Positions 32,560-33,057 of a stretch of DNA of 64,000 bases are shown piece after piece; position 1 is the first letter of the stretch; each line of letters starts with the position of its first letter. The stretch spans positions 1 through 64,000 of the forward strand of contig NW_027464778.1 of assembly GCF_043290135.1 (NCBI RefSeq), written 5' to 3'. The DNA is from Rhipicephalus microplus. Its lineage: Eukaryota > Arthropoda > Arachnida > Ixodida > Ixodidae. A program made the position numbers and the translations under genes. The notes beneath the pieces were generated by a model that saw nothing but the letters and a program-made list of their open reading frames with translations, did not search any database and was not told the DNA's origin.

Positions 32560-32641
32560 TTCGCACGGCTTCTCTCTCTCACACTCTCATCCGTTCCCCG
32601 CGAGCGGCGGCGCGCGATGGTGGCAACGGAAACCATTCGAG

Positions 32642-32971
32642 GATTCGCTCGCAGGATTTCAAGCTGGACGGTTGTGCCCTCGCGATCTCCGACTTCAGCG
32701 TAGCTCCCGCCGACTGGTTCGCCCTCCGCGGTCTCCTGATGCCGTGTAGCTCTCGCATTGTGGCACCCCGCCCTTGGACTGCTTCGACCGGATCCCCACT
32801 TTCCTATCTCCTTCTTTTTCCTCTCGTTGGCTGTCTTCTTCTGCTTCTACTTTCCTTCTATTCTTTTTATCCCTCCTTCCCCCCACCCCTATAAGGCACT
32901 GCGCCGTGTCGCCTGAAGGCAGACAGAAATTAGGTGCCTTTTTCCTCTTCATTGTAACCACTACCACCACC
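32642..32971 (+). mobile_element. cap-site retroposon copy 4A at H2A
   Basis: 330 bp. It is the clearest target duplication at H2A: AACCATTCGAG at 32631-32641 and 32972-32982. The second A at its 3' boundary interrupts the ACC repeat, so the duplicated sequence cannot be explained by the tail. It carries the ATG-containing GATGCC variant. Confidence 0.88.
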
Positions 32972-33057
32972 AACCATTCGAGCACGGCTCTCATCTCAGA
33001 AGGCAGAAGCTTTCTTGTTTTCGGCAACCGGCGTCGTACCAAGCGAAAAGCAACACC

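Follow-up and report, generated by a model that had tools for sequence, protein, structure and literature searches.

The known target-specific non-LTR elements, in the portions of the literature surveyed, use RNA genes, repeats and telomeres, and histone gene starts would be a new target class. A literature search, in which subscription journals were little represented, returned no report of non-LTR elements directed to the starts of histone genes. The LTR element 297 was reportedly found in a Drosophila H3 TATA box, and jockey, I, F, Doc, SART1 and TRAS1 are autonomous elements. Published work describes DPEs at +28..+32 in jockey, Doc, G, I, F, SART1 and TRAS1 (PMC4748587), an abundance of the Ruka SINE in ticks (PMC3160391), and Dada DNA transposons that insert specifically in multicopy genes, the A box of tRNA genes being one of their targets (PMC8869645).

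Here, we describe family A, an element of ~333 bp in the histone arrays of the tick Rhipicephalus microplus. It is very probably a non-autonomous retroposon, driven by capped RNA and a LINE, with a strong and non-exclusive preference for histone promoters. The best reading of its structure is that of a Pol II-transcribed, LINE-mobilised, SINE-like element.

Element copies and junctions in the histone array

The window, by which we mean the whole 64-kb stretch of DNA analysed, is an array of ~9.5-kb histone units with the gene order H2B(-) H2A(+) H3(-) H4(-). Of the named H2B records, the near-complete matches with the highest identity come from ixodid ticks (R. microplus 99% over 94%, Haemaphysalis 98%). 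Replication-type 3' stem-loops were present at its histone genes, with Rfam matches below the gathering score. A histone H1 candidate of at least 140 aa was not seen in 23500-45000, where the sole ATG-started ORF of at least 140 aa was antisense over H2B. To judge from the motif, CATTCG is the probable mRNA start. H2B has a TATA-like box and CATTCGAC, the H3 start reads CAGTCG, and the octamer CATTCGCT recurs in 6/6 spacers; none of these held an insert (7/7 H2B starts, 6/6 H3 starts and all 6 spacers empty). Ten element copies were found, five at H2A and five at H4, all of them in the sense of the host gene (10/10).

2529..2865, + strand: first member of the tandem pair of family A copies at the unit 1 H2A
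2873..3209, + strand: second member of the tandem pair at the unit 1 H2A, differing from the first in four variable columns
8162..8499, - strand: copy at H4 of unit 1, proximal, joined to the tail of the distal copy
8500..8826, - strand: copy at H4 of unit 1, distal member of the tandem pair
13367..13384, + strand: empty H2A site of unit 2
18294..18311, - strand: empty H4 site of unit 2
22825..22842, + strand: empty H2A site of unit 3
27771..28102, - strand: copy at H4 of unit 3, with duplication CATTCGCTTT and GGG
32631..32641, + strand: 5' target-site duplication AACCATTCGAG in the H2A cap region of unit 4
32642..32971, + strand: copy at H2A of unit 4, with one non-target G, A+1 at 32643 and an ACC-type tail at its end
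32660..32674, + strand: MTE-like motif (+18..+29, 9/12) and DPE (+28..+32, GGTTG, 5/5), numbered from A+1 and labelled by presumed consensus strings
32972..32982, + strand: 3' target-site duplication AACCATTCGAG, which rebuilds the H2A cap motif of unit 4
37909..38238, - strand: copy at H4 of unit 4, slightly 5'-truncated, without duplication, the junction sharing TCG
47250..47267, - strand: empty H4 site of unit 5
51788..52118, + strand: copy at H2A of unit 6
57060..57393, - strand: copy at H4 of unit 6, with duplication CATTCGCTT and GG
61921..62252, + strand: copy at H2A of unit 7, with three non-target Gs

A preliminary description of this DNA had noted H2A sites that were filled in units 1, 4, 6 and 7 and empty in units 2 and 3, and this was confirmed; unit 5 has neither the H2A promoter nor the first half of the gene, a deletion at 42555-42776 having fused the H2B cap region to approximately codon 63 of H2A. 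The unit 4 copy and the other junctions also upheld its view of a retroposon of ~330 bp, in the sense of H2A, with an ACC tail and placed at the cap motif. The target duplication that it reported is genuine, since AACCATTCGAG lies on either side of the unit 4 copy (32631-32641 and 32972-32982). H2A was correctly named as a target but is not the only one, because H4 was hit equally often, with five further copies on the minus strand of the window, and H2B was hit once in 27 starts. Most nicks lie at the C/A of CATTCG or beside it, though insertion points are scattered over as much as ~14 bp.

A second array sample, the first 200 kb of contig C148 (C148:1-200000), contributed 18 further copies, giving a total of 28 array copies. 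Their junctions carried the marks of LINE-mediated mobilisation. A duplication of variable length, 7-13 bp, flanked 24 of the 28; the number of ACC/ACT repeats in the tail varied between copies; and 5' truncation was found, slight in 2/28 array copies and also present in the dispersed copies L009, L060, L070 and L074. The tail abuts ATTCG in 9/10 window copies, the exception being the distal H4 copy of unit 1, where a second copy joins the tail. The 3' junctions of the array copies were spread over up to ~14 bp, and those at H2A are ambiguous by ~3 bases because ACC is common to target and tail. The variant 5' end ATTTCGC was shared by both tandem H2A copies of unit 1 (2529-3209) despite their differing bodies, and it also occurred in the H4 copy at C148 177043.

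One to three non-target Gs were found at the 5' end of 26/28 array copies, in 25 cases before ATT(T)CGC and in one before TTCGC, and the remaining two were the slightly truncated copies, in which target bases were lost. Among dispersed copies with an intact 5' end, 15/18 had G before ATTCGC, although some of these Gs are possibly target bases. Untemplated Gs at the 5' ends of L1 and SVA have been interpreted as reverse-transcribed cap (PMC4859970). The extra Gs of family A are what would be expected if a capped RNA starting at ATTCGC was reverse-transcribed.

The element and the H4 leader begin with the same seven bases, ATTCGCT. Downstream, the element has GGTTG at +28..+32, a 5/5 match to the DPE, and a partial MTE (9/12) at +18..+29, judged against strings that we take to be the MTE and DPE consensus. 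When the first 120 bases were shuffled by mononucleotide, the MTE-like motif and the DPE occurred jointly at a frequency of 0.00045, which is to be read with the motifs having been chosen after inspection. A 3' stem-loop was predicted in family A and in its relative family B (see below), and the fold of the whole element was ordinary (z = -0.22). No Pol III-type head was found: ARAGORN returned 0 tRNAs in the window, and no Rfam match fell on the element within 22000-42000. At the sequence level, the promoter motifs and the extra Gs point to a candidate Pol II-transcribed short LINE derivative (SIDE-like), with a putative Inr/DPE promoter and a putative capped RNA.

No ATG-started ORF of at least 140 aa overlapped the unit 4 H2A copy, so the ~333-bp element does not encode the APE endonuclease and reverse transcriptase of an R1-clade-like LINE. 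Its sense translation matched, in pieces, three R. microplus proteins in the protein database, and its antisense translation matched none there. The element DNA had no match in phages, and the exact tail or 5' patterns were absent from viral contigs and bacterial or archaeal genomes.

Target preference and independence of the insertions

The filled sites were concentrated at the H2A and H4 starts. In the window, 8/12 of these starts were filled, compared with 0/50 other CATTCG sites, namely 43 non-start sites and the 7 H2B starts (Fisher p = 1.5e-7). In the C148 sample, family A filled 7/19 H2A, 8/20 H4, 1/20 H2B and 0/19 H3 starts. Over both samples, the values were 11/25 for H2A, 12/26 for H4 and 1/27 for H2B, so that H2A plus H4 (23/51) differed from H2B at p = 8e-5, and family A was missing from 25/25 H3 starts. 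Every array copy (28/28) lay within ~15 bp of, or was stacked on, the start of H2A, H4 or, once, H2B, and was in sense.

The hexamer or octamer CATTCG(CT) alone could be taken for the hotspot, given that every stack of copies in the window abuts CATTCG. As the sole determinant it is refuted, and we leave it practically no probability. CATTCG is insufficient because none of the 43 other sites in the window was used; the spacer octamer CATTCGCT was empty in 6/6 cases, the window H2B starts were filled in 0/7, and the dispersed targets that were read (below) were without CATTCG (0/24).

The sequences of the copies bear on whether they represent separate events. Among the 28 array copies there were 21 signatures of gene, duplication and extra bases, or 20 if one H4 junction of unit 1 is pooled with a look-alike, and 15 haplotypes, the same haplotypes occurring at H2A, H4 and H2B. 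The ten elements of the window fell into 8 haplotypes and differed from one another at a mean of 3.8 columns, with no grouping by gene (permutation p = 0.86); one haplotype was common to H2A of unit 4 and H4 of unit 3, and another to H2A of unit 6 and H4 of unit 1. The site flanks differed by 0-1 base in 250-700 bp between the window units compared; across longer intervals of 2.2-2.6 kb there were 0-3 substitutions plus a few gaps. Many junction signatures and sequence types shared across genes, despite near-identical flanks, indicate repeated insertions and not recombination.

Alternatively, one or two old insertions without any target preference may have been spread by unequal crossing-over and gene conversion. 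The near-identity of the units does show that exchange is active, and some junctions recur with different haplotypes, for example CATTCGAG followed by G and CATTCGCTT followed by GG. We leave room for gene conversion on this account. However, spread by exchange does not fit non-allelic, oppositely oriented genes hit at the same motif, the 21 (or 20) signatures, or copies that vary far more than their flanks and whose haplotypes cross genes. It is largely refuted as the general explanation, and its remaining chance is very small.

In the R. microplus genome searched (3.26 Gb), the exact 29-base tail occurred 936 times. Of the first 100 tail matches listed, 43 fell on contig C1, 47 on C2, where four belonged to an array, and 10 on C3; among these listed matches, 86 copies on C1 and C2 lay outside an array. 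This corresponds to a dispersed density of 0.14 per Mb for C1 and C2, from which ~465 dispersed copies genome-wide were estimated by extrapolation. The sampled arrays held ~106 copies per Mb, ~745-fold more than C1 and C2. Exact filled junctions numbered 136 for H2A and 203 for H4 (total 339), and exact empty H2A junctions 442; the filled, empty and tail counts are separate exact-match counts and lower bounds. With 339 junctions against 936 tails and ~465 dispersed copies, family A does not have most of its copies at one target, as an R1-clade-like element would, and we estimate that about half of the exact 3' ends lie outside histone starts. The excess at histone starts that the preliminary description named as a sign of specificity holds per megabase in the sampled arrays, and strict specificity does not. 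A majority of copies at unrelated sites had been named there as the outcome that would count against the proposal; by number about half are at such sites, though the arrays are still ~745-fold enriched per megabase. The best reading is a strong but non-exclusive preference for histone initiators, not strict specificity.

The dispersed set comprised 24 of 25 fetched family A copies, the strongly 5'-truncated L009 being left out. CATTCG was found at the insertion in 0/24 of the copies read, with one copy (L010) having it 18 bases upstream, and a clear duplication was recognised by eye in 17/24. Their flanks, in which a few tails were incompletely trimmed, did not resemble promoters more closely than family B flanks did (GC p = 0.41, CpG p = 0.19), and a TATA at -20..-60 was present in 3/24 compared with 0/20 family B flanks. 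Three dispersed copies (L069, L072 and L076) lie near one another in one repeated unit, two of them with a TATA box 45-51 bp upstream; a further multicopy Pol II unit may start there.

Selection could also have retained the inserts, if alternative promoters or leaders are of use to the host. In favour of this, the cap motif is restored after insertion, the 5' end of the element resembles a promoter, and 6/10 window copies are without ATG. But ATG is present in the other 4/10, its absence is not significant (P = 0.12), and most H2A genes have no insert (442 exact empty versus 136 exact filled junctions). Selection alone is unlikely, because inserts in the spacer should be at least equally tolerable, yet there were none among the 28. 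We give retention by selection a slim chance, and prefer repeated insertion with a target preference.

Other non-LTR elements near histone starts

An insert at an H3 start of C148 (23583-24006; L019:3583-4006) is a relative of family A, with 69-76% identity in pieces. This family B is 61% identical to family A over aligned columns and keeps GGTTG at +28..+32, and its predicted 3' stem-loop is built of other bases. Of its best 40 genome hits, all of which had their flanks read, 33 were elsewhere and 7 in histone arrays, the latter consisting of five at H3 starts, one in an H2B promoter and one inside a family A copy at H4. The five H3 inserts (L019, L037, L043 and L097-L100) had a common nick before GCAGTTTCG and at least 3 different 5' junctions. 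At the H3 site at C6:10.569M, the apparent tail of a third relative stands directly upstream of family B. Two of the 33 non-array hits, L084 and L093, sit inside family A-like sequence by eye, and the dispersed family B copy L055 has the duplication CATTCGACCGCC, with CATTCG again.

The H2A leader of C148 holds a LINE. A 5.9-kb insert at 10435-16374 (L018:435-6374) is a full-length copy, ~40 bp downstream of the cap motif and in the sense of H2A, and a ~280-bp insert at 104965-105244 (L027:4965-5244) is a 5'-truncated copy at the same distance from the cap motif, also in sense. The two have a common 3' end, before TTGTTTTCGG of the H2A leader, with nicks two bases apart. One ORF of the long insert encodes a cysteine-rich product of 422 aa that matches nothing in Pfam. 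The other, of 1139 aa, has an APE-type endonuclease (Pfam Exo_endo_phos) and a reverse transcriptase (RVT_1), and its nearest solved relatives are LINE-1 ORF2 (E = 4e-64). By similarity rather than by a tree, we call it L1/Tx1-like. An assignment of the 5.9-kb insert as LTR-type was dropped, as it has no terminal repeat and contains LINE ORFs. That this LINE was met twice at one site among 20 units suggests that a second element is directed to histone genes.

This LINE has no meaningful similarity to the family A ends, 3' or 5', so nothing in its sequence marks it as the partner of family A. No partner LINE sharing the family A 3' end was found, nor a parent LINE from which both ends of a SIDE-like element would derive. 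Where the base preceding the tail differed, the sequence proved in 10/10 cases to be an older family A copy. L093 was rejected as a LINE 3' end.

These other elements bear on a further explanation, in which insertion takes place wherever very active histone promoters are open in S phase and the sequence CATTCG has no role. It would account for the 0/43 use of non-start CATTCG sites, for the family B hits in histone arrays (five at the H3 start and one each in an H2B promoter and in a family A copy at H4), for the L1/Tx1-like LINE and its truncated copy in the H2A leader, and for a nick position that varies by several bases. It does not account for H2B, a core histone gene with CATTCG, being filled in 1/27 as compared with 23/51 at H2A plus H4 (p = 8e-5), for the absence of family A at 25/25 H3 starts, or for most family A nicks lying at or beside the C/A of CATTCG. 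We regard open promoters without a sequence contribution as a serious possibility, though not the probable one. Several non-LTR lineages near histone starts argue for a promoter or chromatin component, and the H2A/H4 bias of family A, together with its own ATTCG start, argues for a sequence component.

Proposed mechanism and comparison with known systems

From its sequence and the extra Gs, a capped Pol II RNA would start at the first A of the element (ATTCGCTCGC...), under an internal initiator and an MTE/DPE-type downstream promoter. A putative LINE-encoded reverse transcriptase/endonuclease may recognise the 3' stem-loop and the ACC tail. The junctions lie where the bottom strand would be nicked, at or a few bases upstream of CATTCG, and the cDNA would be primed there; a staggered second cut would give the 7-13 bp duplication, and the Gs at the 5' junction would be templated by the cap. 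The outcome would be an element at +1 of H2A or H4 that follows the host promoter and is itself followed by a rebuilt cap motif. Its targeting probably depends on the ATTCG motif plus open, S-phase-active promoter chromatin. R1Bm is reported to need downstream target sequence for accurate reverse transcription, and the addition of a target-like AGG to a tail-less SART1 construct gave higher accuracy, though poly(A) matters more there (PMC7265360). Read-through RNA of a resident copy would carry target sequence, which is a possible feedback.

As a tentative proposal, which we hold to be possible rather than probable, family A is a promoter-capturing retroposon guided to Pol II initiators, chiefly those of replication-dependent histone genes. 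Its own capped RNA would begin with ATTCG like the target, so that each new copy would lie at +1 of a strong S-phase promoter and be transcribed again. Several tick non-LTR lineages would then divide the histone genes: H2A and H4 would be taken by family A, H3 by family B and the third relative, and the H2A leader by the autonomous L1/Tx1-like LINE. A family that keeps returning to histone starts would make it possible to examine in nature how promoters are read by integration machinery. In a tick with hundreds of histone units, approximately a quarter of the H2A genes (136/578, exact match) have an altered leader, so that effects on histone dosage and on transcription starts could be compared between natural variants.

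Among mobile elements, 297 reportedly shares with family A the position in a histone promoter, but it is an LTR element. Dada elements also target multicopy genes; they are DNA transposons with 6-7 bp duplications and have neither an ACC tail nor extra Gs. Ruka is short and non-coding like family A, whereas it is tRNA-like with Pol III promoters and family A matched neither a tRNA nor an Rfam family. Jockey, I, F, Doc, SART1 and TRAS1 share with family A the logic of an internal Pol II promoter with a DPE at +28..+32 (PMC4748587); unlike theirs, the family A start, ATTCG, equals its target motif. R1, R2, R7, TRAS/SART, Keno and Utopia have in common with family A the TPRT-like junctions, tandem insertion into a regenerated target and tolerance through gene redundancy. 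Family A differs from them in its target, the start of Pol II protein-coding histone genes, in having no ORF and in its leaky preference. Our verdict is that family A is closest in kind to the target-specific non-LTR elements, with their proteins absent and with a new target.
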